A DNA stretch of 64,000 nt from Zhongshania aquatica. Lineage in GTDB: Bacteria; Pseudomonadota; Gammaproteobacteria; Pseudomonadales; Spongiibacteraceae. Each line of letters opens with the position of its first letter. The first letter of the stretch is position 1. Made by a program: the position numbers and the translations under genes. The notes beneath the pieces were generated by a model. It was not told where the DNA came from, ran no database searches, and saw only the letters and a program-made list of their open reading frames with translations. The DNA is taken from positions 62,001 to 126,000 of the forward strand of contig NZ_JANZNQ010000009.1 of the NCBI RefSeq assembly GCF_027257955.1. The letters run 5' to 3'. Below are positions 13,078 through 32,175 of the stretch, one piece after another.

Positions 13078-15504
13078 CTAATTGGTGACCTCATCGGGGG
13101 TGTCAGTTGTATTATCACGAACATTACCGCGTACAAATTTGTGTAATAGCACTGGTAGTAAAGTCATGTCGGCGACCAGTGCGATGATAATCGCTAAACC
13201 GGTGAGTAAACCAAATAATACGCTGGGTACAAAGTCTGAAAAGCCGAGCAGTGCAAAACCGATAGCGATAATAATCGAGGTGTAAATTAAGGCGTAGCCC
13301 ACACTTTGGTGGCTGCGCTCCACTGCTTTTTCTGCGGTATTGGTTTTCAGTTCCAGTAAGTAGCGGTGGATGTAATGGATGGTGTCATCTACTGCAATCC
13401 CCATTGCGATGGCTGCGATGGTCATGGTCATAAAGTCTAGTGGAATGTCACACCAACCCATAACACCCAAGATCGCAATAGCGGAAATAATATTGGGTAT
13501 AATGGCAATGACGGCAATTTTAGCCGATTTAAATATCAAGAAAAAAGCAATTCCTAGGGCAATAAAGACCGCGCCTAGGGTTAGTATTTGCGAGGTGAAT
13601 AATTGTTCCAGCATAGCTTGATAAAGCACAAATAAATTACTTAGCTGGTAGTTTTCTGCTGGAATACCTAAGTCCTGAATTTTCTTGTTAATCTCAGCCA
13701 GCATGGCGCCACGGTCTAGATTTTTGGTGCTGTCTTTAATTCTGGCGCTGATCCGAAGCTGGGTTGGGGGTTCGATTAAAAAGCTATTGAGTAGGTCTTC
13801 GCGAATACTTTTGTCTAAGGTCCAATAAATTGCTGTTAGTTCGTACTCTGTTAGAGGTTTGTTGTTATTGATTTGCTTTGCGAGCTGGGTGAAGTTGAAT
13901 ACCGATAGCCGCGTTCCCATCGCCTCGAATTCACCAAGTGCTTTTTGTATTCTCTGAACGTTGTGAATATCGCGGGCATGGAGGACGAGATTGTTATACG
14001 GGGTGGGTGCCTCTGGTGGCGTATAGATAATATCAAGGGGGGTAGACCCACCAAATTCCTTGTCGATAAAACTTAGTTCCTTGTGTACCTCGGTATCGCT
14101 GGCAAAGTAATTAATAAAACTGTTTTCAACGTCAAGGCGAAGTGATCCAAAAATACTGGCGATAAAAAAGACGGCGCTAAACGCCATAATCGCTGAGCTA
14201 TTTCTAATACATGTTCGCTGAACCCAGTGAACCGGCTTTAACAGTATGAAGTTATTGCTAGGCGATTCTTCTCGGGAAAATAGCAGTAGTAAGGCTGGAA
14301 AGAGAAGTAGGGTGCATAAGATGGATACCGCCATGGCAATAATCATCATCAAGCCAAACGCTTTGACTGGCTCAATTTCACTGAGTAGCAAGGATGCAAA
14401 GCCGAATGAGGTCGTAAAGCCTGCAAAGAAGCACGGGGCGATTTTACTTTTTAAGGTGAGGAGTACTAGCTCCTGCTGTGACATTTCCGGGTTGTTCTGT
14501 ATATCTTCGCGGTACTGCACAATGAGATGGATAACAATAGCGAGGCTGAGTATTAGCTGTAGTGAGATAAAATTAGATGAAATAACGGTGGCCTTGAGTC
14601 CAATTAAGCCAAAGGCGCCAATAGTAATGAATAGACAGCTGGCACAACATGTAATCGTAATAATTACCCAGCTAATACGGCGAAATACAGCGAAAATCAG
14701 CAAACAAATAGCGAGTCCAATGGCGCTGCCAAACACAGCTAAATCATGTTGAATAATATTAATTAGTTGGTAGCCAAGAACATGTGCGCCACCTAAGTAG
14801 AGGTCGGCTTCGTCGCTGTAGTCGTTAGTGATTTTACGTAATTGTTCAATTTCTTTGTTGCGGGTTTCTCTCAATCTTTTTTCTAATGGGGCGGCCTTTG
14901 CTTTTAATTCATTTAGTGTTTCTTTGTCTTCGTTCGACAGCGGTCCGTCTAATAGCTTTGATTGGATGGCAAGAATGTCTGCGTCGATATTTTGTAAAAA
15001 TATACTGGTTTTGAATAGGACTTGGATGCCGCTGGCGGTTTGCTCGTGATTGATGAGAAGGCCGTCGTAGATTGGATGGTCTTTGAAGATGCGACGTAAC
15101 TCAGATGCCGAGAGTTGCAGATTTTCTTGGGTGAAATCGCTTGGGTTCATCTCCGTGCTGAGCCCCTGACTTGCCTTGGACAGTAATGGAACATTCATTA
15201 CCGAGCGCACGGATTTTACGCGATTAAGTCGCTTAATTTTTTGACTAATTTCTGAGATATTGGCTTGGCTTTTCGCAGAGAAGATATCCCCATCTTTGGG
15301 GTGATAGGCAATAATTAGAAACTCTTCCGGTGAAAACGCCTGATTTACTTTCTGGCTCTTTATAAACTCGAGATTGTTTTCAGATATTAATGTGTCTGTC
15401 GATGCGTTTATTTCAAAGCTTCTGCTGTGCCATCCGAAGAAAATCACGAGTAAAGCGAAGATTAGCAAAATGATTTTGTGGCGTTTAATGAGTGCTTCAA
15501 GCAT
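13078..15504 (-). CDS. MMPL/RND family exporter, paired with MlaA-like protein
   Basis: The 808-residue pump has two repeats of TM helix, periplasmic domain and helix bundle. GIAVDDTIHYIHRY in the second bundle is the conserved acidic motif. A predicted coiled-coil-like charged stretch lies at ~195-235 in the first periplasmic domain. It is a paralogue of the pump at 29647: both share the NSILDVPLL/SVMNVPLL-type stretch, the SPIYKSLL/HPIYDGLL-type stretch and a GG(S/T)(T/I)PLDII segment. It lies 14 bp after the MlaA-like gene in the same operon, which suggests lipid movement between membranes. An AGGA lies about 11 bp before the ATG. Confidence 0.9.
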   Translation of the reverse strand: MLEALIKRHKIILLIFALLVIFFGWHSRSFEINASTDTLISENNLEFIKSQKVNQAFSPEEFLIIAYHPKDGDIFSAKSQANISEISQKIKRLNRVKSVRSVMNVPLLSKASQGLSTEMNPSDFTQENLQLSASELRRIFKDHPIYDGLLINHEQTASGIQVLFKTSIFLQNIDADILAIQSKLLDGPLSNEDKETLNELKAKAAPLEKRLRETRNKEIEQLRKITNDYSDEADLYLGGAHVLGYQLINIIQHDLAVFGSAIGLAICLLIFAVFRRISWVIITITCCASCLFITIGAFGLIGLKATVISSNFISLQLILSLAIVIHLIVQYREDIQNNPEMSQQELVLLTLKSKIAPCFFAGFTTSFGFASLLLSEIEPVKAFGLMMIIAMAVSILCTLLLFPALLLLFSREESPSNNFILLKPVHWVQRTCIRNSSAIMAFSAVFFIASIFGSLRLDVENSFINYFASDTEVHKELSFIDKEFGGSTPLDIIYTPPEAPTPYNNLVLHARDIHNVQRIQKALGEFEAMGTRLSVFNFTQLAKQINNNKPLTEYELTAIYWTLDKSIREDLLNSFLIEPPTQLRISARIKDSTKNLDRGAMLAEINKKIQDLGIPAENYQLSNLFVLYQAMLEQLFTSQILTLGAVFIALGIAFFLIFKSAKIAVIAIIPNIISAIAILGVMGWCDIPLDFMTMTIAAIAMGIAVDDTIHYIHRYLLELKTNTAEKAVERSHQSVGYALIYTSIIIAIGFALLGFSDFVPSVLFGLLTGLAIIIALVADMTLLPVLLHKFVRGNVRDNTTDTPDEVTN

Positions 15505-18372: not shown

Positions 18373-18696
18373 TTAATGGGCAATGCGAATCTGTACCGAA
18401 TTGCCTTCGGTGCGGGCTTCATAGCAGGCTATAGATACGCTGTCGTCTTCGAGGCATTGGCCTGCTTCAAGACTGAAATGCTGCTTATAAATTGGTGATG
18501 CTACAACTAAGGTGCCTTTAATGCTGCAGATTATGCCTCTGGAAAGGACGTTGGCATTGCTAAACGGATCCTTATTGGCGAGTGCATAAATTGTATCGTC
18601 AACGCGGAATACGGCCACTTGCATTTCCTCAATTAAAGCGGCAACACCTGTGTTGGGCAGTATGTCATCGATACTGCAAACGGTTGTCCATGACAT
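18373..18696 (-). CDS. nirD: Assimilatory nitrite reductase (NAD(P)H) small subunit
   Basis: The 107-residue protein has a Rieske-like fold pattern (QVAVFRVDDTIYAL, then ASPIYKQHFSLEAGQCLED) but lacks the Cys-His ligands of true Rieske proteins, as is normal for NirD. It partners NirB in the six-electron reduction of nitrite to ammonium in the cytoplasm. It follows nirB by 73 bp on the same strand, with an AGGA site before the ATG, and is followed by an intrinsic terminator. Confidence 0.92.
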   Translation of the reverse strand: MSWTTVCSIDDILPNTGVAALIEEMQVAVFRVDDTIYALANKDPFSNANVLSRGIICSIKGTLVVASPIYKQHFSLEAGQCLEDDSVSIACYEARTEGNSVQIRIAH

Positions 18697-18769
18697 TGGG
18701 TAGTCCTCATATAAATTCGGTGCTGATCAACAATAATTATGTGCCGATCAGCGTGTTGATTAAGCGTGT

Positions 18770-21316
18770 TTAAGCAACGGCGATTAAATCGGAATCGGCA
18801 ATTTTCTCTGCCTCAGTCGCGGGGCGAATTTGACCGCGCTCCTGAATAAATACGATTTCTTTGTCGCTCTTGTCGGCATTCACAAAGCTGCGGAATTGCT
18901 TAACTTTCTCTGGGTTTTCAATAGTGGTTTTCCATTCGCATTGGTAGGTGTCTACCACGTGTGCCATTTCCGCATCTAGGTCGGCGCAAATTCCCAGTGA
19001 GTCGTCGATGATGACTTTGCGAAGATAATCTAGGCCACCTTCTAAATTCTCCATCCATACCGAGGTACGCTGTAGGCGGTCGGCGGTGCGCACATAAAAC
19101 ATCAGGAAGCGATCGATATATTTGACCATGGTGTCGGTATCTATATCTGATGCAAACAGGTCCGCGTGCCGTGGTTTCATACCGCCATTGCCACATAGGT
19201 ACAGGTTCCAGCCTTTTTCGGTGGCGATGACACCGACGTCTTTGCTCTGTGCTTCCGCGCACTCCCGTGTGCAACCCGATACCGCCATTTTCAGTTTGTG
19301 GGGGGAGCGCAGGCCTTTATAGCGATTTTCTAAGTCTATCGCTTTGCCCACGCTGTCTTGCACGCCGTAGCGGCACCATGTAGAGCCGACACAGGATTTT
19401 ACTGTGCGTAGCGACTTACCGTAGGCGTGACCAGATTCAAAACCGGCACTTATGAGCTCTTCCCAAATGCGTGGTAGTTGGTCGAGGGTGGCGCCGAATA
19501 GATCAACGCGCTGGCCTCCGGTAATTTTGGTGTAAAGATTGTATTTTTTTGCCACTTGGCCAACGGCAATTAAGCCGTCGGGGGTGACCTCGCCGCCCGC
19601 CATGCGCGGTACGACTGAATAAGTGCCGTTCTTTTGCATATTGGCTAAGAAGCGGTCGTTGGTGTCTTGTAGCGCAGCGTGCTTGGGTTCGAGTATGTAG
19701 TCATTCCAGCAGGAGGCAAGTATAGACGCTGCTGTAGGTTTGCAAATTTCGCAGCCGTGGCCACTGCCGTGCTTTTCCAATAACTCATCGAATGATTTAA
19801 TCTCGCCAACGCGAACCAAATGATAAATTTCTTGGCGAGTGTAAGGGAAGTGCTCGCAGAGATCGGTGTTGACCTCAACGCCCATTTTGGTGAGCTCTGC
19901 GTTCAACACTTGGCCAACCAGCGCAGTACAGCCGCCGCAGGTAGTGGCCGCCTTAGTGCAGGCTTTTAAATCGCCAACGGTCATTGCGCCGTCTTGTACG
20001 GCAGCACAAAGATCACCTTTGCTAACGTTGTTACAAGAACAGATTTGAGCGACGTCGGGTAGTGCGTCTACGCCAAGGCCAACTCCTGCGCTGCCGTCTA
20101 ACGCAGGTAAAATCATGCTTTCTGGGTGTTCAGGTAGCTCGATTTTGTTAAGGGCAAACTGCAGCAGGGTGCCGTAGTCGTTTGCTTCACCAATTAATAC
20201 TGCACCCAATAAATGCTGTCCGTCTTCGGTGACGACAATCTTTTTATACACTTCGGCTTTTTCGTCGATAAAGGTGTAGCACTTGGCGCCGGGGGTGCTG
20301 GCGTGGGCATCACCGATTGAGGCGACATCAACACCCATAAGTTTGAGCTTGGTGCTCATGTCAGCGCCGGTGAAGGTTTTTTCGCTGCTACCTATTACGT
20401 GGTCGGCCGCGGCGCGGGCCATATCCCAACCTGGCGCGATAAGGCCGTAAATGCGACCGCCCCATAAAGCACATTCGCCAATGGCATAAATTGCTGGATC
20501 AGATGTTTGGCAGTTGTCGTTGATAACAATGCCGCCACGTTCTCCCACCTCCAAGTCACTTTGCCGGGCTAGTGCGTCTTGTGGGCGAATACCGGCGGAG
20601 AATACAAGTATGTCGGTTTCTAGTTCTGCGCCATCGGCAAATTGCAGTTTATGAATGCAATCGTTGCCATCAATAATTTGCTGGGTGTTTTTCTGGGTGT
20701 GAACAGACACACCCAAATCTTCAATCTTTCTGCGCAGCAGGGCACCGCCACCTTCATCTACTTGCACCGCCATCAGGCGCGGTGCAAATTCAATAACGTG
20801 GGTTTTTAGGCCGAGGTCTTTTATTGCCTTAGCGGCTTCTAAACCCAATAGGCCGCCGCCTACGACTGCGCCGACTTTAGCGTTTTTTGCCGCTGCGGTG
20901 ATTGCTTCTAGATCTTCTATGGTGCGGTATACAAAGCAGTTTTGGCGGTCGTGACCCGGTACCGGTGGCACAAATGGGAAGGAACCAGTAGATAAGATGA
21001 GTTTGTCGTAGGCGTATTTTTCGCCTTTGTCGGTGGTGGCTACTTTATTCGCGCGATCAATTTCGGTGACTTTCTCGTTACTCAGCGCCGTGATGTTGTT
21101 ATTACTATAAAAGCCTTCTTTCACCATATTAAGAGAGTCGGCTTCGCGGGTTTCAAACCAAGCGGTTAAGTGAACGCGGTCGTAAGCTGGGCGGGGTTCT
21201 TCGCCGATGACCGTGATGTCGAATTGATCGGACTGACCGCTCTCGACTATGGATTCGATAAATTGGTGGCCAACGGGACCGTTACCAACAATAAGCAGGC
21301 GTTGTTTGTCAGTCAT
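18770..21316 (-). CDS. nirB: Assimilatory nitrite reductase (NAD(P)H) large subunit
   Basis: The 848-residue protein has the full NirB order: an FAD/NAD(P)H oxidoreductase domain (VGNGPVGHQF at the N-terminus, GGGLLGLEAAK near 153), a BFD-like [2Fe-2S] region (CSCNNVSKGDLC near 424 and CGGCTALV near 460), then the ferredoxin-like half domain and the siroheme/[4Fe-4S] domain with CVGSTWCRYG near 642 and GCTRECAEAQ near 682. It reduces nitrite to ammonium with NirD. AAGGA precedes the ATG by 7 bp. A sigma-54-type promoter lies about 80 bp upstream (21398-21413), and the gene is divergent from nasA. Confidence 0.95.
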   Translation of the reverse strand: MTDKQRLLIVGNGPVGHQFIESIVESGQSDQFDITVIGEEPRPAYDRVHLTAWFETREADSLNMVKEGFYSNNNITALSNEKVTEIDRANKVATTDKGEKYAYDKLILSTGSFPFVPPVPGHDRQNCFVYRTIEDLEAITAAAKNAKVGAVVGGGLLGLEAAKAIKDLGLKTHVIEFAPRLMAVQVDEGGGALLRRKIEDLGVSVHTQKNTQQIIDGNDCIHKLQFADGAELETDILVFSAGIRPQDALARQSDLEVGERGGIVINDNCQTSDPAIYAIGECALWGGRIYGLIAPGWDMARAAADHVIGSSEKTFTGADMSTKLKLMGVDVASIGDAHASTPGAKCYTFIDEKAEVYKKIVVTEDGQHLLGAVLIGEANDYGTLLQFALNKIELPEHPESMILPALDGSAGVGLGVDALPDVAQICSCNNVSKGDLCAAVQDGAMTVGDLKACTKAATTCGGCTALVGQVLNAELTKMGVEVNTDLCEHFPYTRQEIYHLVRVGEIKSFDELLEKHGSGHGCEICKPTAASILASCWNDYILEPKHAALQDTNDRFLANMQKNGTYSVVPRMAGGEVTPDGLIAVGQVAKKYNLYTKITGGQRVDLFGATLDQLPRIWEELISAGFESGHAYGKSLRTVKSCVGSTWCRYGVQDSVGKAIDLENRYKGLRSPHKLKMAVSGCTRECAEAQSKDVGVIATEKGWNLYLCGNGGMKPRHADLFASDIDTDTMVKYIDRFLMFYVRTADRLQRTSVWMENLEGGLDYLRKVIIDDSLGICADLDAEMAHVVDTYQCEWKTTIENPEKVKQFRSFVNADKSDKEIVFIQERGQIRPATEAEKIADSDLIAVA

Positions 21317-21397
21317 CTTTACATCCTTTAATACATACTCATGCGTTGGCCGCTGGCCGTCGCTGTTTTAGGTGCTCATGCAATCTAAAAGGTTATT

Positions 21398-21413
21398 AGC
21401 AAAAGCTATGCCA
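21398..21413 (-). promoter_or_regulatory. Putative sigma-54 promoter for nirBD
   Basis: On the minus strand this reads TGGCATAGCTTTTGCT: the -24 GG and -12 GC elements are separated by exactly 10 bp and flanked by the consensus TGGCA and TTGCT bases. The predicted transcript would start about 60-70 bp before the nirB ATG. Confidence 0.7.
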
Positions 21414-21465
21414 TGGCATGGTTGAGCATTTAAGTCGTTGATTTTATTGGGTCTTCTTGTGTTTG

Positions 21466-21482
21466 TGCGCTTTGTTGGGGCG
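21466..21482. promoter_or_regulatory. Weak NtrC-like dyad in the nirB-nasA gap
   Basis: TGCGCTTTGTTGGGGCG has the 5-7-5 layout of an NtrC site (TGCAC-N7-GTGCA) with a good left and a poor right half. A second GC-rich dyad at 21528-21546 has spacing two bases too long. An activator site is expected between two sigma-54 promoters, but this identification is tentative. Confidence 0.3.
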
Positions 21483-21678
21483 ATTTCGAAAGAAAAATCC
21501 TTGGGTGGTCGGGGCGTGTTGGGGCGCTGCGCATTGTTATGGTGCGATCTGGGTGTTGAGATCTATCTCTTGGGGTGATTCATTCTGGTGCGTTTTGGCA
21601 AATTTGATTTTAATTTATACTAATAAGGTTATTTAAAACAATGGCTTATGTTTTGTTGATTAATGCGAAAAATTAGTT

Positions 21679-21694
21679 TGGCATAGGGATTGCC
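21679..21694 (+). promoter_or_regulatory. Putative sigma-54 promoter for nasA and the phosphatase-kinase gene
   Basis: TGGCATAGGGATTGCC has GG and GC separated by exactly 10 bp with TGGCA and TTGC consensus bases. Transcription would start near 21705, leaving a leader of about 30 nt before the nasA ATG, too short for a NasR-type attenuator. Confidence 0.75.
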
Positions 21695-21736
21695 CCTGGG
21701 TCTGCAGATACCTTTGTGACCTTTTAGGAGCCGTTG

Positions 21737-23209
21737 ATGTCCTCTTCAACCTTAAATGTGCTTGATCTCAAGCAAGATAAGATTCGCTTGTTGCACTTAA
21801 GTTGGTTTGCGTTCTTTCTGACTTTTGTTGTGTGGTTTAACTTTGCGCCGATGCTGTCGGCTATCAAAGAAGCCTTTGATCTGAGTACTCAGCAGGTTAA
21901 AGCGCTCATGATTTTGAACGTGGCGCTAACAATACCGGCGCGGGTGATTGTTGGTATGTTGGTGGACCGCTTCGGCCCACGTATTGTTTTTAGTGCCTTG
22001 CTTGTTTCCGGTGGTCTGGTGTGCGTCGCTTTTGCGATGGCAAATAGCTATGAAATGATCGCCCTGTTGCGATTTTTAATGGGCTTTATTGGCGCTGGTT
22101 TTGTTATCGGTATTCGCCTGGTTGGTGAGTGGTTTCCCGCGCGTCAAGTAGGTTTGGCTGAGGGCGTTTACGGTGGCTGGGGTAACTTCGGTTCCGCCGC
22201 CGCGGCAATGAGCCTGCCGACCTTGGCATTGTATTTTGGTGGCGATGACGGTTGGCGCTACGCAATCGCAAGCACGGGTTTGCTGGCGTTTCTCTACGGC
22301 TTTTTCTTCTACTGGCGCGCTCGCAATACGCCAAAAGGGTCAACTTACTTTAAGCCTAAGAAATCCGGTGGCTTGGTAGTGAGCAGTAAGCGCGACTTGA
22401 TCTTTTACATTGTCATGTGTGTGCCCATGTACCTTGCCTTGGCCGTGCTGACTTGGAAGTTGTCGCCGGTGAATTTGGGATTGCTCAGCGAATTTGCCTC
22501 TGTCGCGCTATATGTGGTGTTAGCGGTTTTGTTTGTGGTGCAGGTCAGCCAAATTTTGCGGGTGAATAGTGATGTGATTAATAATGTTGCTATTCCGTCA
22601 ATGCAGCAGTACAAGTTCAAGCAGGTGGCCATTCTTAATGTTGCGTATTTTGTAACCTTTGGGTCTGAGTTGGCGGTGGTTTCTATGCTGCCCCTGTTCT
22701 TTATGGACACGTTTACCTTGAGCGCGGTTGAGGCCGGTTTGTTGGCGTCAGGTTTTGCGTTTATGAATTTGGCGGCGCGTCCCGGTGGCGGTTACTTGTC
22801 TGATAAATTTGGTCGTCGTAAATCGTTGTCTATTTTGGTTGCAGGCTTAGCTGTGGGTTATATGGTGTTGAGTCAGATCGAATCGGCTTGGCCCGTTTGG
22901 TTGGCTGTGATTGCAACTATGTGCTGTTCTTTCTTTGTTCAGGCGGGCGAGGGTGCAGTATTTGCGATAGTGCCCTTAGTTAAGCGCAGCATGACTGGCC
23001 AAATTGCAGGCATGACAGGGGCTTACGGTAATGTCGGTGCGGTGATTTTCTTAACGGTGTTGTCGTTTGTGAGTAATGCAAACTTCTTTATGGTTATTGC
23101 GGCCTGTGCGGCGGTGGTGTTTGTGGCGGTGCAATTTCTCGAGGAGCCACAGGGACATACTGCAGAGTTACATGATGACGGTAGTGTTGCGCTGATTGAA
23201 GTAGGCTAA
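21737..23209 (+). CDS. nasA: Nitrate/nitrite MFS transporter (NarK/NasA type)
   Basis: The 490-residue protein has about twelve membrane helices and the nitrate-porter signatures of the NNP family: [14 protein letters not shown] in TM1, [11 protein letters not shown] in the loop, [19 protein letters not shown] in TM4-5, and the glycine-rich [16 protein letters not shown] and [16 protein letters not shown] that bind anion. Import of nitrate and/or nitrite for assimilation is expected, given divergent nirBD. An insertion of two extra hydrophobic stretches near residues 225-275 between the halves is visible. The ATG at 21737 has AGGAG 6 bp upstream. Confidence 0.93.
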
Positions 23210-23245
23210 AGTGCGACCTAGCCTTTAGTTTTTGGAATCCCTCCG

Positions 23246-24964
23246 ATGCATTTCGATGGCGGTTTAAAATTGTCCATTGCCCAGCACAGTAGTGCTGGGC
23301 AAAAGGCGGTTAACGAAGATAGTCTTGGTATTCGGGTGCCAGAAGATCAGCAAATTACCACAAAAGGCGCGGTGGCCGTTATTGCCGATGGTGTGTCGGC
23401 GGCAGAGGCGGGGAAAGAAGCTGCGGAAACCTGTGTGACAAGTTTCTTAAGTGATTACTACTCTACGCCAGATTCATGGTCTGTTAAGCGCTCTGCGCAG
23501 CAAATTCTAAATGCCCTTAATCGCTGGCTGTATGGTCGGGGTCAGCATTATTTGCAGGCTGAAAAAGGCTATGTGTCTACATTAAGCATCGCCATCTTTA
23601 AGTCTCAAACGGCGCATTTATTCCATGTCGGTGATAGCCGAATTTATCGTTTGAGAGATGGCTTTCTCGAGCAGCTTACCCGTGATCACGCAATGCCTAT
23701 TGGCCGTGGGCGGTCTTACCTGACCCGCGCAATGGGTCTAGATATTAATTTAGACGTCGATTATCGCGCAGTTGACGTTGCTATAAATGATATTTTTTTA
23801 TTGACGACAGACGGTATTCACGACGTTCTTAGCAGTTCGCGAATGCAGGCGCTAATTAGTGAATGTGCTGGGGATCTTCAGGCGGCTAGCCAGCTTTTAA
23901 TAGAGGGGGCCTTGGCCGCGGGCAGCGACGACAATTTGAGTTGTCAGTTGTTACTAGTTGATGCCCTGCCCTTGGAAGATGCTGGTGATGTATATAGAAA
24001 GTTAACGGCGTTGTCTTTTCCTCCCCTCCTAAGTGCGGGGATGGTGGTAGATGGTTTGGTTATTGAAGAAGAGATCCATGCCAGTCCCCGCAGTCAGCTC
24101 TATAAAGTATTTGATGCAACCGCAAATTGTCACTATGTGATGAAAACTCCGTCGGCAAATTTTAACGATGATCCTGCCTATATAGAGCGCTTTATTTTAG
24201 AAAGTTGGATCGGTCGGCGTATTCAAAGTGACTACGTCATTGATGTTATTGAGCCGCCAAACGCGCCAAGTTGTTTATATTATTTGTCTGCGTATTCGCC
24301 GGGATTAACGCTCAGGCAGTGGATGACAAAAAATCAAAAGCCCGCGACGAAATCGATGCTAGATATCATTGTGCCTGTAGCGAAAGGGCTGCAAGCAATG
24401 CACAGGCGAGACACATATCATCAAGATATAAAGCCTGACAATATTCTGGTGGGAGACGATGGCGGGATTAAGATTATCGACTTCGGCTCTTGTTATGTTG
24501 CTGGCTTGGCGGAGATAGCTGTTCCGATAGAGCGTGATAGGGTGCTAGGGACCGCGCAATACTCGGCTCCGGAACACGTGCTAGGTCGGCGATCGAGTAG
24601 TAAGGCAGACCAGTTTTCGCTGGCCGTTATTGTTTTCGAGATGCTTACCGGTCAGCAGCCTTATCAGGGTCGATTGCAAAACTGCACAACGACCGCTGCG
24701 TTTTCTCGGTTGGAGTACGTTTCGGCTTGTCATTACAATCCGCACGTTCCTCTGTGGTTAGATGCTACATTAAGTCGCGCCCTAAGTATTAGCCCTGAAC
24801 TGCGCTATAACGATGTATCAGAATTCGTGTATGACCTAGAGCATCCGAATCCGGAGTTCATGAAAAATGAATTTCAGCCCTTGTTCACACGCAATCCGTT
24901 GCGTACGTGGCAGGCAATCTCCCTCTTCCTATTGGTGTGTTTGCTGTGGAGCTTGCAGCGTTAA
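23246..24964 (+). CDS. PP2C-type phosphatase / Ser-Thr kinase fusion, membrane-anchored
   Basis: The 572-residue protein joins an N-terminal PP2C phosphatase (VIADGVSAAEAGKEA near 46, HVGDSRIYRLRDG near 128, TTDGIHDV near 189, GSDDNLSC near 228) to a C-terminal Hanks-type kinase (~270-535: YVMKTPS lysine, YHQDIKPDNIL catalytic loop near 392, IDFGS near 412, GTAQYSAPEH activation segment). The catalytic loop has His-Gln-Asp in place of His-Arg-Asp. A single TM helix (~550-568) ends the protein, leaving both domains cytoplasmic. It starts 36 bp after nasA and is almost certainly in its operon. Fusions of this kind are known beside nitrate transporters in Pseudomonas-like genomes; their targets are not established. 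Control of transport or reduction by phosphorylation is inferred. Confidence 0.92.
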   Translation: MHFDGGLKLSIAQHSSAGQKAVNEDSLGIRVPEDQQITTKGAVAVIADGVSAAEAGKEAAETCVTSFLSDYYSTPDSWSVKRSAQQILNALNRWLYGRGQHYLQAEKGYVSTLSIAIFKSQTAHLFHVGDSRIYRLRDGFLEQLTRDHAMPIGRGRSYLTRAMGLDINLDVDYRAVDVAINDIFLLTTDGIHDVLSSSRMQALISECAGDLQAASQLLIEGALAAGSDDNLSCQLLLVDALPLEDAGDVYRKLTALSFPPLLSAGMVVDGLVIEEEIHASPRSQLYKVFDATANCHYVMKTPSANFNDDPAYIERFILESWIGRRIQSDYVIDVIEPPNAPSCLYYLSAYSPGLTLRQWMTKNQKPATKSMLDIIVPVAKGLQAMHRRDTYHQDIKPDNILVGDDGGIKIIDFGSCYVAGLAEIAVPIERDRVLGTAQYSAPEHVLGRRSSSKADQFSLAVIVFEMLTGQQPYQGRLQNCTTTAAFSRLEYVSACHYNPHVPLWLDATLSRALSISPELRYNDVSEFVYDLEHPNPEFMKNEFQPLFTRNPLRTWQAISLFLLVCLLWSLQR

Positions 24965-25104
24965 GCGATCACATTTATCGAGATCATATTTCGTAAATTA
25001 AATAAAAATTATCGGTAGTTAGATGTTGTTGAATTCCCATTGTTTACCATATAAATAACTATGCATTATGTCGGTGCGATATATTTTGCGTAATTTTTTG
25101 TTTG

Positions 25105-25121
25105 TGCGCTAGTTTGGTGCT
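25105..25121. promoter_or_regulatory. NtrC-like enhancer dyad upstream of the porin gene
   Basis: TGCGCTAGTTTGGTGCT matches the NtrC consensus TGCACYWWWDTRGTGCA at 14 of 17 positions with correct half-site spacing. It lies about 150 bp upstream of the sigma-54-like promoter at 25257, the usual distance. A further GGTGC half-site lies directly adjacent. Confidence 0.5.
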
Positions 25122-25256
25122 GGTGCGCTTTTTTATGAATCTTATTGATCTTGTGCTGATGGATTTTTTGGTGCGTTTTTTTGTTTTTATAATTTTTAAG
25201 ATTTTAACTTTATGAAAAATAACGATTTATAATAATTTTTTTATTTTCGAAAGTTT

Positions 25257-25272
25257 TGGCGTTGTCCTTGCT
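25257..25272 (+). promoter_or_regulatory. Putative sigma-54 promoter for the porin gene
   Basis: TGGCGTTGTCCTTGCT has GG and GC exactly 10 bp apart with the TGGC and TTGCT consensus bases. Transcription would start near 25283, about 80 bp before the porin start codon. The rest of the 398-bp gap from 24965 is AT-rich, with no gene seen. Confidence 0.65.
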
Positions 25273-25362
25273 AAAGGTAGTTTGTGAATGTGTTTCGTTC
25301 AGAAAATATTGCAGTGCTACTTAAGTTAAGGGCGTTAATGCCTAAATTTTCGGAGATATGTT

Positions 25363-26610
25363 TTGAATATTATTAAATTTCCTTGGTTGGCTTTTTTTAT
25401 GTGTGCAATTTTCGCCGCGCAAAATTCCTATTCCGCTGAATCTCTTGGCGAAGCCTTTAGCAAAGGTGAAGCGCATTTGAATATGCGTTTGCGATATGAG
25501 TCCATGACAGAGGATATGCCGAGTGGTGAAAACACCGGTAGAGCTGTAACGCTTAGAACGCGTTTAAATTTTAAGACTGACGCTTATCAGGGTTTTACTG
25601 GTTTTATCGAAATGGATGACGTAAGTAATTTCGCAGGTAGTTCCAACGATAGTGTCAATGGCAATGTGTCTGAGCCATTAATTGCGGATCCTGTTGGCAC
25701 CGAAGTTAACCAAGTCTTTTTAGCGTATAAAAATTGGGATATCGAATTTAAATACGGTCGTCAGCGTTTAACCTTGGATAATCATCGATTTGTTGGTCAT
25801 GTTGGCTGGCGTCAAAATGAGCAGACATATGATGCGTTTACCCTTGCAAATAGCAGTGTAGAAAACTTAAAGATAACTTACGCGCATATTTCAAATGTGA
25901 ATCGTATTTTTGGCGAAGCGAGTCCCGTCGGTGATACCGAAATGGACTCCCATATACTTAATGCTAATTACACCTTCCCGGCTGGCAGTTTGACCGGCTA
26001 CGCCTATCTACTAGAAACCGATGATAATTTTGCTGGCTTTAAGCGCATGGATACCGATACCTACGGTTTACGTTGGCAGGGGCAGGCGGGCGTCGTTTCT
26101 TATAACCTTGAATATGCCACGCAGGAAAGTGCAGGCGATAACCCAGCAGATTACACTGCTGATTACATGTTAGCTGAGGCAAATATTAATGTTGCGCCGA
26201 TTGTCATTGGGCTTGGTTACGAAGTCTTAAGTGCCGACGACGATGGCTTTTTTATTACTCCCTTGGCAACCTTGTTTAAATTTCAAGGTTGGACAGATAA
26301 CTTCCTTAACAAGGGTCTAGGTAATATTAGTGAAGGTATAAACGACGCCTATGTGACGTTGTCCGGCGCCGCTTTCGGAATGAATTGGCAAGTAGCCTAC
26401 CACGATTTTACCCCAGACCAAGATAATGCGACCGGCGGCGATGACCTTGGTACGGAGTTTGGTGGCTTTATTGGCAAAAGCTGGGGCCCATATTCTGCGG
26501 AGTTGCGTTACGCAAGTTACCGCGCTGGTGATTCTAAGCCATTTAATGGCGGTGGTTTGATCTTGGTTGATACCCAAAAAGTGTGGTTAACCTTTAACAT
26601 TAATTATTAA
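25363..26610 (+). CDS. Alginate-export-family outer-membrane porin (nitrogen-regulated?)
   Basis: The 415-residue product has a signal peptide ending near SYSAES and the pattern of a monomeric beta-barrel of the alginate_exp (AlgE-like) family: LRYESMTEDMP, LRTRLNFKT near the N-terminus, KYGRQRLTLDNHRFVG near 125 and a final strand TFNINY ending in an aromatic residue. The start is TTG with GGAG 7 bp upstream; an ATG at 25358 in another frame is followed at once by TTT TGA. It lies 0.4 kb after the nasA operon behind its own sigma-54-like promoter and an NtrC-like site. I infer an outer-membrane channel for nitrate or another nitrogen source rather than alginate. No alginate genes are nearby. 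Confidence 0.8.
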   Translation: MNIIKFPWLAFFMCAIFAAQNSYSAESLGEAFSKGEAHLNMRLRYESMTEDMPSGENTGRAVTLRTRLNFKTDAYQGFTGFIEMDDVSNFAGSSNDSVNGNVSEPLIADPVGTEVNQVFLAYKNWDIEFKYGRQRLTLDNHRFVGHVGWRQNEQTYDAFTLANSSVENLKITYAHISNVNRIFGEASPVGDTEMDSHILNANYTFPAGSLTGYAYLLETDDNFAGFKRMDTDTYGLRWQGQAGVVSYNLEYATQESAGDNPADYTADYMLAEANINVAPIVIGLGYEVLSADDDGFFITPLATLFKFQGWTDNFLNKGLGNISEGINDAYVTLSGAAFGMNWQVAYHDFTPDQDNATGGDDLGTEFGGFIGKSWGPYSAELRYASYRAGDSKPFNGGGLILVDTQKVWLTFNINY

Positions 26611-26773: not shown

Positions 26774-27169
26774 CTAAAAAATCCCACCTTCTACTGCGCC
26801 GCCTATCAACGGTATTGATGCCGTTTCCGTGAGATTAAGAATCACAGGTGTAAGGCCACCTAGTTGCAGAGTTGCGCCATTGTCAGTTAGCCCGTCAACT
26901 GCAGTAATCAACACGTCTAAGCCTTGTACAGGGAGAGGCAGTGCGGTATTGAGTGTGGTGTTTAGTAGGTCGCTGGCCATGGACGCTACGCTGCCAATAA
27001 GTTCATTTTCGGCGGAAAGACCGCTTACAACTGGTAGAAGTGATTGGCTTGCAATTCCTGTTACCGAAGGGAGTAGGCCTCCTACTAGTCCTTCGGATCC
27101 AACTTGTGAGTGAGCAGTGCTCGCTATAGATAGGGCAGTGCTTATTAGAATTATTTTCAAGGGGTTCAT
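26774..27169 (-). CDS. Small secreted protein of unknown function
   Basis: From the ATG at 27169 (GGAG 6 bp upstream) the product is 131 residues, with a clear signal peptide MNPLKIILISTALSIAS followed by TAHSQ. The mature part is rich in Leu, Gly, Ser and Thr, with no Cys and few charges, and repeats of the type GGLLPSV, SLLPVVSGL and GGLTPVILN. I do not recognise a family. It could be a surface or matrix-associated protein. It converges on the porin gene across the inverted repeat at 26702-26754. Confidence 0.65.
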   Translation of the reverse strand: MNPLKIILISTALSIASTAHSQVGSEGLVGGLLPSVTGIASQSLLPVVSGLSAENELIGSVASMASDLLNTTLNTALPLPVQGLDVLITAVDGLTDNGATLQLGGLTPVILNLTETASIPLIGGAVEGGIF

Positions 27170-27573
27170 GTCAGCTCCAAGTGTAAAAAATGTCGATGTA
27201 TCAATTACGTCGTAAATAGCTAAGTGGTTTATCGATTGATATTGTTGTGTGCTGAAGGGTATCTGCATGTGTATTGATGAGCAATTAGCGCGGTCACGTT
27301 TTGGGACTTAGCGCGCATTTGTGCTAGTGGTGTGGCGAATGATCCGTGCAGTAGTTGGTGTCGGTTTGTAAATCTAGCCGAGTTCAGCGCTGGTGTCTCG
27401 GCCACGCCCATCCGTTTGTCGTTTTGCGGTCTACGCGGATGACCGATTTGCCGCTGGCTGACCTTGTCTATGTAAAATTACAGTTGCTCGCAGCTCTTCT
27501 TGCGTTTGCGTAGAGCTGGCGCGATAGCGGTGATACCATGCCACACAGAATTTTTCGTGTGGCGTTTTCATTT
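27170..27573. other. Gene-free stretch before mpl
   Basis: This 404-bp gap separates the divergent small secreted protein gene and mpl. Apart from the hairpin at 27540-27563 I see no gene, repeat or convincing promoter pair. Confidence 0.5.
27540..27563 (+). promoter_or_regulatory. Hairpin just upstream of mpl start
   Basis: A perfect 7-bp stem GCCACAC/GTGTGGC with a 10-nt A/T-rich loop ends 10 bp before the mpl ATG at 27574, where no good ribosome-binding site is seen. It may affect mpl translation, or may be the terminator of an unseen short transcript. Confidence 0.4.
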
Positions 27574-29646: not shown

Positions 29647-32175
29647 ATGGGTGCGGCGCTGTTTTCATTGTATCAACGCGTGGTGTTAAAGAACGCATTT
29701 TGGGTGATGGCCTTGTTACTGCTGGGTGTCGGCTTTTTGGCGACATATATCCCCACACTGAAGTTGGATGCCTCTGCGGATGCTCTCGTACTCGAGGGCG
29801 ATACGTCACTGGAATACTATCGCGAAATTAGTAAGCGCTACGGCTCGGAAGACTTCTTATTGGTTACCTACCAGCCTAAAGGTGACCTTTTCGCACCGGA
29901 ACAGTTGAAAACGCTGGATGAATTGCGTGGTCGCATGGCGGCGCTGCCTAATGTTTCCTCAGTAAATTCGATTCTGGATGTTCCCCTACTACAAAGCCCA
30001 AGGGTGTCACTGAGTCAGGTCACCGCGGGTGATATACCGACACTCCGAACGCCGGGAATTGATATTGAGTTAGTAAAAAAAGAGCTGGCGAATAGCCCGA
30101 TTTATAAATCTTTGCTGACCAGTGTTGACGGCTCCACTACGGCGATACAGGTAAATTTGAAGCGTGATGAACGCTACTTTGAATTACTCAACGCGCGTGA
30201 CGCGCTGCGTGAAAAAGCGACTAAGGAAACGATTAATAGTGCCGAAAGAGCCGAGCTTGCTGAGTTAGAAACAACATTTGCAGATTACACCAGCGAGGCC
30301 CACGAAAGGCAGGCGGAATTGGTCGCGCAGGCTAGGGATATCGTGAAGGACTATCGCGGCGACGCTACCGTGTTCTTGGGCGGTGTGCCGATGATCGCTG
30401 TGGACATGATCGACTTTGTAAAAAGCGATTTGCGGGTGTTTGGTACCGGTATTTTGTTGTTTATTATCGCGTTATTGGTGGTGATCTTCCGGAGCTGGCG
30501 ATGGGTCTTGTTACCCCTGGCGACCTGCGTGCTAACCGTGACGTTTATGTTGGGTTTGCTGAGTTTTCTCGATTGGCGTTTGACGGTTATTTCCGCGAAT
30601 TTTGTTGCCCTGTTATTAATTATTACGCTTTCGATCACCATACATTTGGTGGTGCGCTTTCGCGAGTATGCGTCTGCGCAGCCAGATGCAGATCAATTCA
30701 CCCTAATCTCTGAAACAGTGGGTGTAATGATACGCCCCTGTGTTTACACGTCATTGACCACCTTGGTGGCTTTTGGATCTTTGGTCGTGAGTGGTATTCG
30801 GCCGGTGATCGATTTTGGTTGGATGATGGCAATTGGCGTTCTCGCGGCTTTGGCGATGACCTTTATTGTATTGCCCTGTGTGTTGATGCTGATGAAGCCG
30901 CGGGAAGAAAAACTCAGCAAGGATAACTCAGCTGCCTTAACCCACTACTTTGCGGCAGCTGCCGAGCATTACGGTAAAACTATTTTGGTGGTTTCCTTTG
31001 GCTTGTTGGCACTGAGTGTGTGGGGAATTACGCAGTTAAAAGTTGAAAATCGCTTTATCGATTACTTCCATGATACGACCGAAATATATCAGGGTATGGA
31101 GACCATCGATTCTGAATTGGGTGGCACAATCCCGCTAGATATTATTCTCGATCTGCCAAAAGCCAAGCCTGCCGCGGCTATGCCTGCTGCCGCCGACAAT
31201 GAATTTAGTAATGATTTTGCCGATGACTTCAGCGATGACTTCGGTGATGATTTTGGCAGTGATGATAACGCAGCATCACAGAGCGAATGGTTTACCGTGG
31301 CGGGTATGAAACGTATTCAGTCTGTTCACGATTACATCGATAGCCTACCTGAGACTGGCAAAGTGCTGTCATTGGCAACATTCTACGATGTTATGCAGAT
31401 CGTGATGGGCAATGTCGATGATTTGCAATTAGCGTTGGCACAGCGTTCGCTGCCAGAGTCGATAACCTCAATTTTGGTTGATCCGTATTTATCAGCTGAT
31501 GTTGATCAGGTGCGCATCAGTGTGCGGGTTAAGGAAACTAGCCGTACCTTGCATCGTCAGCAGTTGTTATTGGATATTCGTGCGCATCTAATCGATGAGC
31601 TGGGTTTTGAGCCAGATCAGGTTCATCTTACCGGCATGCTGGTGCTTTATAACAATATGCTGCAAAGCTTGTTTACCTCGCAAATCATGACGTTGAGCGC
31701 GGTATTTGTGGCTATTCTCGCTATGTTTGTGGTGCTTTTCCGCTCGTTGAGTTTGGCCTTGATCGCCTTGACGCCAAATCTGTTGGCGGCGGGTGCGGTG
31801 CTCGGCGGGATGGGCTTGGCGGGTATTCCGCTTGATATGATGACCATTACGATTGCAGCGATTACCGTTGGTATTGGTGTGGATGACACCATTCACTATG
31901 TTCATCGTTTTAAAGAAGAATTTGCCCATGACCGAAATTATCTGGCGGCGATGTATCGCAGTCATGCCAGTATTGGTAAGGCAATGTATTACACCTCGGT
32001 GATTATTGTCTTTGGTTTCTCCATCTTGGCACTGTCTAATTTTACACCCAGTATTTACTTCGGTTTGCTGACCGGGCTTGCGATGGTAGCGGCATTGCTC
32101 GGCGCTATGCTCTTACTGCCTAAGTTGATTTTGCTGATTAAACCTCTGGGGCCAGAGGCGGGAGACAAGGCCTAA
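29647..32175 (+). CDS. MMPL/RND family exporter with acidic repeat insert
   Basis: The 842-residue pump has two TM-periplasmic-helix-bundle repeats; GIGVDDTIHYVHRF marks the second bundle. It resembles the pump at 13078 (shared FLLVTYQPKGDLF/FLIIAYHPKDGDIF-type segment) but carries an extra acidic stretch at residues ~519-545 in the second periplasmic domain. A GAGGG ribosome-binding site lies about 6 bp before the ATG. It follows ubiX by 94 bp and overlaps the next gene by one base. The cargo is unknown; lipid or other hydrophobic molecules are the family norm. Confidence 0.9.
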   Translation: MGAALFSLYQRVVLKNAFWVMALLLLGVGFLATYIPTLKLDASADALVLEGDTSLEYYREISKRYGSEDFLLVTYQPKGDLFAPEQLKTLDELRGRMAALPNVSSVNSILDVPLLQSPRVSLSQVTAGDIPTLRTPGIDIELVKKELANSPIYKSLLTSVDGSTTAIQVNLKRDERYFELLNARDALREKATKETINSAERAELAELETTFADYTSEAHERQAELVAQARDIVKDYRGDATVFLGGVPMIAVDMIDFVKSDLRVFGTGILLFIIALLVVIFRSWRWVLLPLATCVLTVTFMLGLLSFLDWRLTVISANFVALLLIITLSITIHLVVRFREYASAQPDADQFTLISETVGVMIRPCVYTSLTTLVAFGSLVVSGIRPVIDFGWMMAIGVLAALAMTFIVLPCVLMLMKPREEKLSKDNSAALTHYFAAAAEHYGKTILVVSFGLLALSVWGITQLKVENRFIDYFHDTTEIYQGMETIDSELGGTIPLDIILDLPKAKPAAAMPAAADNEFSNDFADDFSDDFGDDFGSDDNAASQSEWFTVAGMKRIQSVHDYIDSLPETGKVLSLATFYDVMQIVMGNVDDLQLALAQRSLPESITSILVDPYLSADVDQVRISVRVKETSRTLHRQQLLLDIRAHLIDELGFEPDQVHLTGMLVLYNNMLQSLFTSQIMTLSAVFVAILAMFVVLFRSLSLALIALTPNLLAAGAVLGGMGLAGIPLDMMTITIAAITVGIGVDDTIHYVHRFKEEFAHDRNYLAAMYRSHASIGKAMYYTSVIIVFGFSILALSNFTPSIYFGLLTGLAMVAALLGAMLLLPKLILLIKPLGPEAGDKA
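31210..31263 (+). repeat. 12-bp-period tandem repeat encoding Asp-Asp-Phe-rich insert
   Basis: Degenerate 12-bp units of the form GAT GAC TTC GGT encode the repeats DFAD, DFSD, DFGD and DFGS inside the third MMPL pump. The stretch is absent from the paralogue at 13078. It is probably a flexible or metal-binding acidic loop on the periplasmic side. Confidence 0.75.

Follow-up and report, generated by a model that had tools for sequence, protein, structure and literature searches.

A candidate nitrate/nitrite porin of the Alginate_exp family in a predicted NtrC/sigma-54 nitrogen regulon of Zhongshania aquatica

The inner-membrane carriers for nitrate and the assimilatory reductases are well described. 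Several outer-membrane porins have been connected with nitrogen supply: OpdQ, an OprD-family porin of Pseudomonas aeruginosa, is induced by nitrate through NarXL (PMC4694141), several outer-membrane porins are tabulated as members of the NtrC regulon in Burkholderia cenocepacia (PMC5491218), and BCAL3473 of the latter species is called amine-transporting (title of PMC10117139). Among the literature titles and abstract beginnings listed in our search, no proposal of a porin for nitrate assimilation was found; subscription papers lay largely outside this search, so that a prior description is possible. Here we analyze a 64,000-nucleotide stretch of the genome of Zhongshania aquatica (contig NZ_JANZNQ010000009.1, positions 62,001 to 126,000; hereafter named the window), in which genes for nitrite reduction and nitrate/nitrite transport are found close to a gene encoding an outer-membrane porin. 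We consider it likely that this porin is an NtrC/sigma-54-controlled porin for the uptake of nitrate/nitrite. The initial annotation of the window had put forward such a role as outer-membrane entry route, and this is now supported by genetic linkage, by a conserved sigma-54-type site, by the rarity of such linkage among other Alginate_exp proteins and by the predicted fold.

The genes concerned, among which nirD, nirB, the NarK-type carrier and the Alginate_exp porin were confirmed by family profiles, are the following (aa, amino acids):

18373..18696, - strand: nirD, small subunit of the assimilatory NADH nitrite reductase, 107 aa (TIGR02378, 121 bits, cut-off 74.65; PF13806)
18770..21316, - strand: nirB, large subunit of the assimilatory NADH nitrite reductase, 848 aa (TIGR02374, 1140.6 bits, cut-off 578.35)
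21734..23209, + strand: nasA, nitrate/nitrite transporter of the NarK family and major facilitator superfamily (TIGR00886, 316.5 bits, cut-off 311.7)
23246..24964, + strand: fusion of a PP2C phosphatase and a Ser-Thr protein kinase, 572 aa (PF13672, PF00069)
25363..26610, + strand: outer-membrane porin, 415 aa, with a signal-peptide-like N-terminus (PF13372 Alginate_exp, 34.9 bits, cut-off 25.2)

Genes nirD and nirB are divergent from nasA, whose start codon is probably the ATG at 21737. The phosphatase/kinase fusion, which was absent from the initial annotation, separates nasA from the porin gene, and its sequence cluster (c3) is present in 18 of the 41 sequences examined. Presumably, a kinase gene also adjoins nasA in Pseudomonas.

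Co-occurrence of the porin and nas genes in related genomes had been named in the initial annotation as a check on its proposal, and the proposal survived it, with both strong co-occurrence and physical linkage. Among 57 relatives the porin was present in 35 and nasA in 34; 28 had both, which gives p 1e-4 by Fisher's test, or p 0.003 when only relatives outside the genus are taken. A class-wide panel of 232 gammaproteobacterial genomes with a completeness of at least 90% contained 56 genomes encoding the porin subfamily. At least one of the genes nrtB, nirB and narK was present in 51 of these 56 genomes vs 78 of the 176 others (p 9e-11), and nrtB alone in 28/56 and 30/176, respectively, using thresholds of at least 150 bits for nrtB, at least the family cut-off for nirB and at least about 249 bits for NarK. 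The linkage was also physical, since 34 of 61 porin genes are located within 20 kb of nrtB, nirB or narK, vs about 1.9 expected. This number includes one NarK row of 150.7 bits (G194:C16); with a uniform NarK threshold it becomes 33/61, and the genome counts do not change (genome G194 has another NarK). One nrtB row of 150.2 bits (G141) was left out, and genome G141 was counted anyway. As a control we considered the other PF13372 members of the same genomes, which were linked in only 2 out of 26 cases (G073 and G174; p 1.5e-5); this control was counted by eye, and genome G159 has, about 6 kb away, an ATP-binding cassette permease that at 126 bits falls under the nrtB threshold. Because the genomes are related, these p-values overstate independence.

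The organization of 80 named loci, in 77 of which a porin open reading frame (ORF) was called, is in agreement with these results. Assimilatory linkage thresholds are reached at 39 of them, and the linked loci mostly carry assimilatory markers, i.e. nrtABC, a NasT-like gene and full-length nirB. At 19 of the 80 loci nrtC and the porin gene share a strand, the porin gene coming next after nrtC. The neighbors in the cluster of locus L038 were named by family search (substrate-binding protein PF13379, permease, ATPase and ANTAR protein) and those of other loci by homology. Two of the named loci are from Zhongshania, with 75-79% identity. Linkage is spread across the entire porin tree, with 14 changes of label, and the association is therefore old or has been formed repeatedly. 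Two tree labels were assigned by hand: L106 was scored as linked (nasA 17 kb away, genome G008), and so was L107, though nasA of genome G017 is on another contig. In genomes G027 (L058:6082-9019) and G026 (L038/L039), two porin copies of the family form a tandem or share a cluster with nrtABC.

The initial annotation had also reported three promoter-like sites with GG-N10-GC geometry, one upstream of each of the genes nirB, nasA and porin. All three were found letter for letter, each of them oriented toward its gene:

21398..21413, - strand: TGGCATAGCTTTTGCT, sigma-54-type promoter of nirBD, starting 97 bp before the called nirB start
21679..21694, + strand: TGGCATAGGGATTGCC, sigma-54-type promoter of nasA, starting 55 bp before the called nasA start
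25257..25272, + strand: TGGCGTTGTCCTTGCT, sigma-54-type promoter of the porin gene, starting 106 bp before the called porin start

From the last of these, transcription of the porin gene is predicted to start near position 25283. The bare GG-N10-GC pattern was rejected as evidence, as the two strands of the window contain 544 copies of it, and TGGCACG-N4-TTGCW with up to 3 mismatches was rejected likewise, showing no excess (106 found vs 115.6 expected). The pattern TGGC-N7-TTGC[CT] has only 6 matches in the window, both strands counted, and three of these matches are the nirB, nasA and porin sites; genome-wide (4.49 Mb) it was found 229 times vs 61 times for the reversed control pattern. According to a position-weight score, with weights approximated from an assumed consensus, the scores of the nirB, nasA and porin sites are reached by 1, 4 and 16 of the 127,970 window positions, respectively, the nirB site being the top-scoring sigma-54-like position of the window. 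Sites of at least 14 bits were detected before 15 of the 21 nirB-cluster genes scored, window nirB included, and before 8 of 17 other nasA-cluster genes (positions -37 to -141). No site of at least 14 bits was found before the remaining 9 of these 17 genes, and the start calls of some of them are possibly over-long.

The site before the porin gene is conserved. TGGY-N7-TTGCT, located about 106 bp before the porin start, is invariant in 8 out of 8 aligned Zhongshania genomes, and its flanks diverge. When 16 porins were considered (15 from Zhongshania and one from another genus of the family), TGGC-N7-TTGC[ACT] was present within 400 bp upstream of 15 of them vs 0.31 expected (at most 3 in 300 shuffles), and the single porin without it carries TGGT instead. 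Genome G006 was left out of the genus set; the ORF taken there is an overlapping frame on the opposite strand. In genomes G017 and G016 the porin gene and nasA are on different contigs and the site is kept (exact in G017, with TGGT in G016); shared control therefore seems to outlast linkage. Among the porin ORFs of the named loci, 10 of the 64 examined (2 from Zhongshania; only ORFs whose start was clearly anchored and that had enough DNA upstream were kept) have a sigma-54 site vs 0.48 expected, and these include the unlinked loci L112, L114, L119, L120 and L129. Where nrtABC precedes the porin gene, the site often lies upstream of nrtA: of 23 nrtA genes with 200 bp or more of upstream DNA, 12 have a site of at least 12 bits, vs 0.62 expected from shuffling and 12 of 300 other genes. 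Thus, a TGGC-N7-TTGC-type element with fixed spacing, as expected for a sigma-54-dependent promoter, is conserved before the porin gene. One could argue that sigma-54-like letters in AT-rich intergenic DNA merely coincide here with an accidental neighborhood, in view of the 544 bare GG-N10-GC occurrences, the lack of excess with 3 mismatches and the moderate strength of the porin site alone. Against this stand the full motif in 15 of 16 upstream regions (0.3 expected) and the linkage of 34 (or 33) of 61 porin genes vs 1.9 expected; on the latter a chance neighborhood is rejected, and we regard chance as a scarcely credible explanation overall.

NtrC-like sequences were scored over all 17-mers of the + strand of the window, using an assumed consensus (maximum score 22). 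The sites of interest are:

25105..25121, + strand: TGCGCTAGTTTGGTGCT, NtrC-like dyad, 19/22, the highest score among the + strand 17-mers of the window
25062..25078, + strand: TGCATTATGTCGGTGCG, second NtrC-like dyad, 18/22, absent from the initial annotation; only 3 + strand 17-mers of the window score at least 18
21530..21546, + strand: CGCATTGTTATGGTGCG, weak NtrC-like dyad in the nirB-nasA intergenic region, 17/22, a score reached or exceeded by 12 + strand 17-mers of the window

The first dyad, previously placed about 150 bp upstream of the porin promoter, is located 152 bp before the sigma-54 site. A second TGGTGC (25121-25126) follows directly after its own half-site, and TGGTGC matching this copy is invariant in the 8 aligned Zhongshania genomes. 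The dyad at 21530-21546 is only suggestive of an NtrC site. Considering the 27 porins that have a sigma-54-like site, upstream NtrC-like dyads are enriched (mean score 17.2 vs 14.2 in shuffles). In addition, the genome encodes the sigma-54 factor RpoN (PF04552, 235 bits, contig C19) and NtrC (TIGR01818, 748.9 bits, cut-off 558.6, contig C52). An ntrC gene and predicted dyads upstream of the porin promoter (25105-25121 and 25062-25078) are thus both present, and from these sequence features we infer that the locus is regulated by NtrC and sigma-54.

The Zhongshania porins belong to two clades from opposite parts of the porin tree (8 and 7 rows). In 14 out of 15 loci the porin gene, of one clade or the other, adjoins mpl or is separated from it by at most two small ORFs, and both porin types carry sigma-54 sites. 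This suggests that one porin type has taken the place of the other at a regulated position that was itself retained, as would be predicted if selection acts on the slot and not on the precise protein.

The Pfam name of the porin family raises the alternative that the protein exports alginate or another polysaccharide, like the alginate exporter AlgE, with which it has the PF13372 family in common. The PF13372 match, which passes the gathering score and is the only one in the genome at E 0.001, covers however only residues 39-255 of the porin, about half of its length, at 34.9 bits. AlphaFold2 gave a confident model of an 18-strand outer-membrane barrel (mean predicted local distance difference test score 86.9, predicted template modeling score 0.84), which has the strand number of the Occ/OprD fold and is slightly nearer to the Occ/OprD uptake porins than to AlgE. 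The nearest solved folds include BenF-like 3jty, OccK9/OpdG 4ft6, OccAB3 5dl7 and OpdQ 3t24, with 11-16% identity to the window porin in those alignments. No alginate gene was present among the neighbors named by family search, alginate synthesis genes not having been searched for. Together these results make export of a polysaccharide very improbable; the initial annotation had likewise suggested that the porin is no alginate exporter. At the sequence level the porin falls outside the Occ/OprD profiles: no OprD-type Pfam family matched at E 0.001 (Alginate_exp alone did), and NF033923 (Opr family porin) reached 22.9 bits, far under its cut-off of 150. When solved structures were searched with the porin sequence alone, nothing was obtained at E 1, and with a porin profile 'Major outer membrane protein' 10ac was found (E 2e-5, N-terminal part); a viral capsid chain (E 0.36) obtained with the profile was taken as a chance match. 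When sides of the strands were assigned by hydrophobicity, without coordinates, conserved residues R44, R65, R67, R382 and K406 were assigned inward on neighboring strands 1, 2, 17 and 18. Residues E46, E83, D85, E287, D328 and E365 are also conserved.

The window cluster itself contains no nitrate reductase according to the ORF list, Pfam and NCBIfam. The best candidate in the genome is a 727-aa Nas/Nap-like molybdoenzyme encoded outside the window (genome G000, contig C19:232656-234722; L228:4643-8786, - strand), whose gene adjoins that of a 615-aa fusion of DmsB/DmsC-like Fe-S and membrane-anchor parts. Matches of comparable score and length (open frames of 727-766 aa) were found in 17 of the 18 genus genomes, i.e. 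in all but G006. This last genome lacks a nasA match and has nrtABC beside the porin gene; it also encodes a NasC-like enzyme of 887 aa, close to a NIT-ANTAR regulator. The 727/615 pair shows 72% and 60% identity to a pair located between nasA and nirBD in genome G026, where further members of the nas cluster are a NasT-like gene, then nrtABC and the porin gene. The 727-aa enzyme scored higher with the formate dehydrogenase alpha model (586 bits, cut-off 666) than with the NasC model (512 bits, cut-off 1100), both under cut-off. Formate dehydrogenase was set aside, and nitrate reductase is the preferred identity, because the catalytic motif LCMASA also occurs in the NasC-like 887-aa protein from G006 and because of the homologous pair in the G026 nas cluster. 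We assume here a Cys-Met versus Cys-His rule for this molybdoenzyme motif. It is plausible that the 727/615 pair is the nitrate reductase of this genome, possibly a quinol-linked assimilatory enzyme in place of NasC. Nitrate assimilation thus is likely in this organism, and a pathway for nitrite only is less likely.

A number of observations weigh against a porin dedicated to nitrate/nitrite assimilation. Two of the 18 genus genomes (G005 and G007) have nasA and no porin match, so that the porin is not essential. For 22 of the 61 porin genes a partner was found only elsewhere in the genome, another 5 are in genomes without any of nrtB, nirB and narK at the thresholds set, and 41 of the 80 named loci reach no assimilatory linkage threshold within the fetched DNA. 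Taken alone, the sigma-54 site of the window porin is moderate (12.1 bits; for the best upstream sites of 292 other genes the 90th percentile is 10.9 and the 95th 13.5), and its weight therefore rests on conservation. No protein of the genome passes the NCBIfam cut-off for NasC, and around the candidate reductase (the match plus 1.5 kb on each side) there is no matching sigma-54 site. Moreover, the inward strand charge is near neutral (mean K+R 15.9, D+E 13.8; 11 and 15 for the window porin) and the whole porin is acidic (34.5 against 51.1 on average); anion selectivity is therefore not evident. Finally, respiratory or denitrification genes were named at no fewer than 4 of the 41 unlinked loci, neighbors having been scanned at part of the loci (98 of 139 neighbor proteins; of 437 families, the first 25). 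Two such loci are from Ferrimonas (L135 and L138:5036-7519), where the end of napA, which scores over cut-off, is about 0.5 kb away from the porin match that follows it; in Kordiimonas (L180:3-9212) narG, narH, narJ and narI, all of which pass the cut-off of one model or more, are followed by two short genes and the porin gene on the same strand; and in a metagenome-assembled genome of Verrucomicrobia (L174:4069-6447) a gene for a copper nitrite reductase domain protein (nirK, over cut-off) is located two genes before the porin gene. These four loci indicate that the porin family is not confined to nitrogen assimilation, and that the common theme is nitrate/nitrite rather than assimilation as such.

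Two alternatives follow the same data. According to one, the porin belongs to the NtrC/sigma-54 regulon and its main substrate is another small anion or an organic nitrogen source, as for a general nitrogen-starvation porin; a milder form would be passage of nitrite only. The lack of a NasC over cut-off, a window cluster made up of a nitrite reductase and a NarK-type carrier without nitrate reductase, the many porin loci away from nitrate genes, and the precedent of NtrC-dependent porins for other nitrogen sources in B. cenocepacia (PMC5491218 and, for BCAL3473, the title of PMC10117139) would fit with this. The position of the porin gene directly after nrtABC-type genes in 19 of the 80 named loci, the strong enrichment obtained with nrtB alone, the narGHJI, napA or nirK genes beside some otherwise unlinked porins, and the plausible nitrate reductase pair do not, and we consider this alternative unlikely. 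According to the other, which is compatible with an NtrC-controlled uptake porin in Zhongshania, the subfamily provides nitrate/nitrite porins for respiration as well as assimilation, the Zhongshania context being one of several. The narGHJI, napA and nirK neighborhoods argue for it, as do genes for a NarX/NarQ-like sensor kinase (under curated cut-offs) and NarK-family proteins near the porin in genome G040 (L045), and the nitrate induction of OpdQ via NarXL (PMC4694141). Since most linked loci carry assimilatory markers and respiratory genes were named at four, among neighbors scanned at part of the loci, we put this broader role forward as a tentative possibility.

We thus favor uptake of nitrate/nitrite by the porin as part of an NtrC/sigma-54 regulon for nitrogen limitation that would equip nitrate/nitrite assimilation with a dedicated channel in the outer membrane. 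Under nitrogen shortage, NtrC at its upstream sites would activate sigma-54 RNA polymerase at the nirBD, nasA and porin promoters. We infer that nitrate and/or nitrite would then diffuse through the 18-strand barrel into the periplasm, from where NasA (NarK type) here, and NrtABC in many relatives, would carry it inward; nitrate reductase would convert nitrate to nitrite, and NirBD would convert this to ammonium. Respiratory reduction of nitrate/nitrite seems to be what this porin family serves in some of the distant relatives. Somewhat more cautiously, we incline to the view that this Alginate_exp-related subfamily, found in many Gammaproteobacteria and some alphaproteobacterial and other genomes, forms a widespread and unrecognized class of dedicated nitrate/nitrite channels, which would be NtrC/sigma-54-controlled for assimilation, would be found beside respiratory reductases, and would have divergent versions swapped at one slot under strong selection. 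If so, the subfamily would supply the outer-membrane part that has so far been missing from bacterial nitrate use, and a biological role would be given to many proteins named Alginate_exp. As outer-membrane permeability could limit uptake when nitrate is low, possession of such a porin would matter for how marine bacteria compete for nitrate.

Some other features of the region are recorded here. A 164-aa ORF (26774-27268) without Pfam or NCBIfam match sits between the porin gene and mpl, and its cluster (c19) comprises 5 of the sequences examined, window included. Two homologous large membrane proteins, which form one sequence cluster and by appearance suggest exporters, are encoded on either side of the nas region (13078-15504, 808 aa; 29647-32175, 842 aa). 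In L032 (8687-17218) a module of TPR, TolQ/ExbB-like, TolR-like and AgmX/PglI-C-terminal-domain proteins is located between the kinase gene and the porin gene; its clusters also occur in L034, L035, L036, L049, L050 and L051 from other Zhongshania genomes, and the module is not at that place in the window genome (its families were named from L032 only). A block of DUF3034, PepSY-TM and amicyanin/plastocyanin-like genes adjoins the porin gene in some Zhongshania genomes (L032:18661-19893, L033:32-2816).

Compared with known systems, the locus resembles the nas/nir loci of pseudomonads, which also contain nirBD and a NarK-type nasA and, like the relatives of the window, a NasT-like regulator (response regulator plus ANTAR). 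It differs from P. aeruginosa in that nirBD of the window has a sigma-54-type promoter, whereas the P. aeruginosa nirBD operon is reported to use antitermination (title of Romeo et al. 2012, cited in PMC7801951). An Rfam scan of window positions 12000-34000 gave 0 matches at gathering scores, and hence no evidence for a known antitermination leader. The window porin differs from the Occ/OprD porins by its NtrC/sigma-54-type promoter and by its linkage to assimilatory genes. Like porins of the BCAL3473 type (PMC5491218), it is an outer-membrane porin that is predicted to belong to an NtrC nitrogen regulon. Unlike BCAL3473, which is amine-transporting by the title of its report (PMC10117139), the window porin is proposed to admit nitrate/nitrite.

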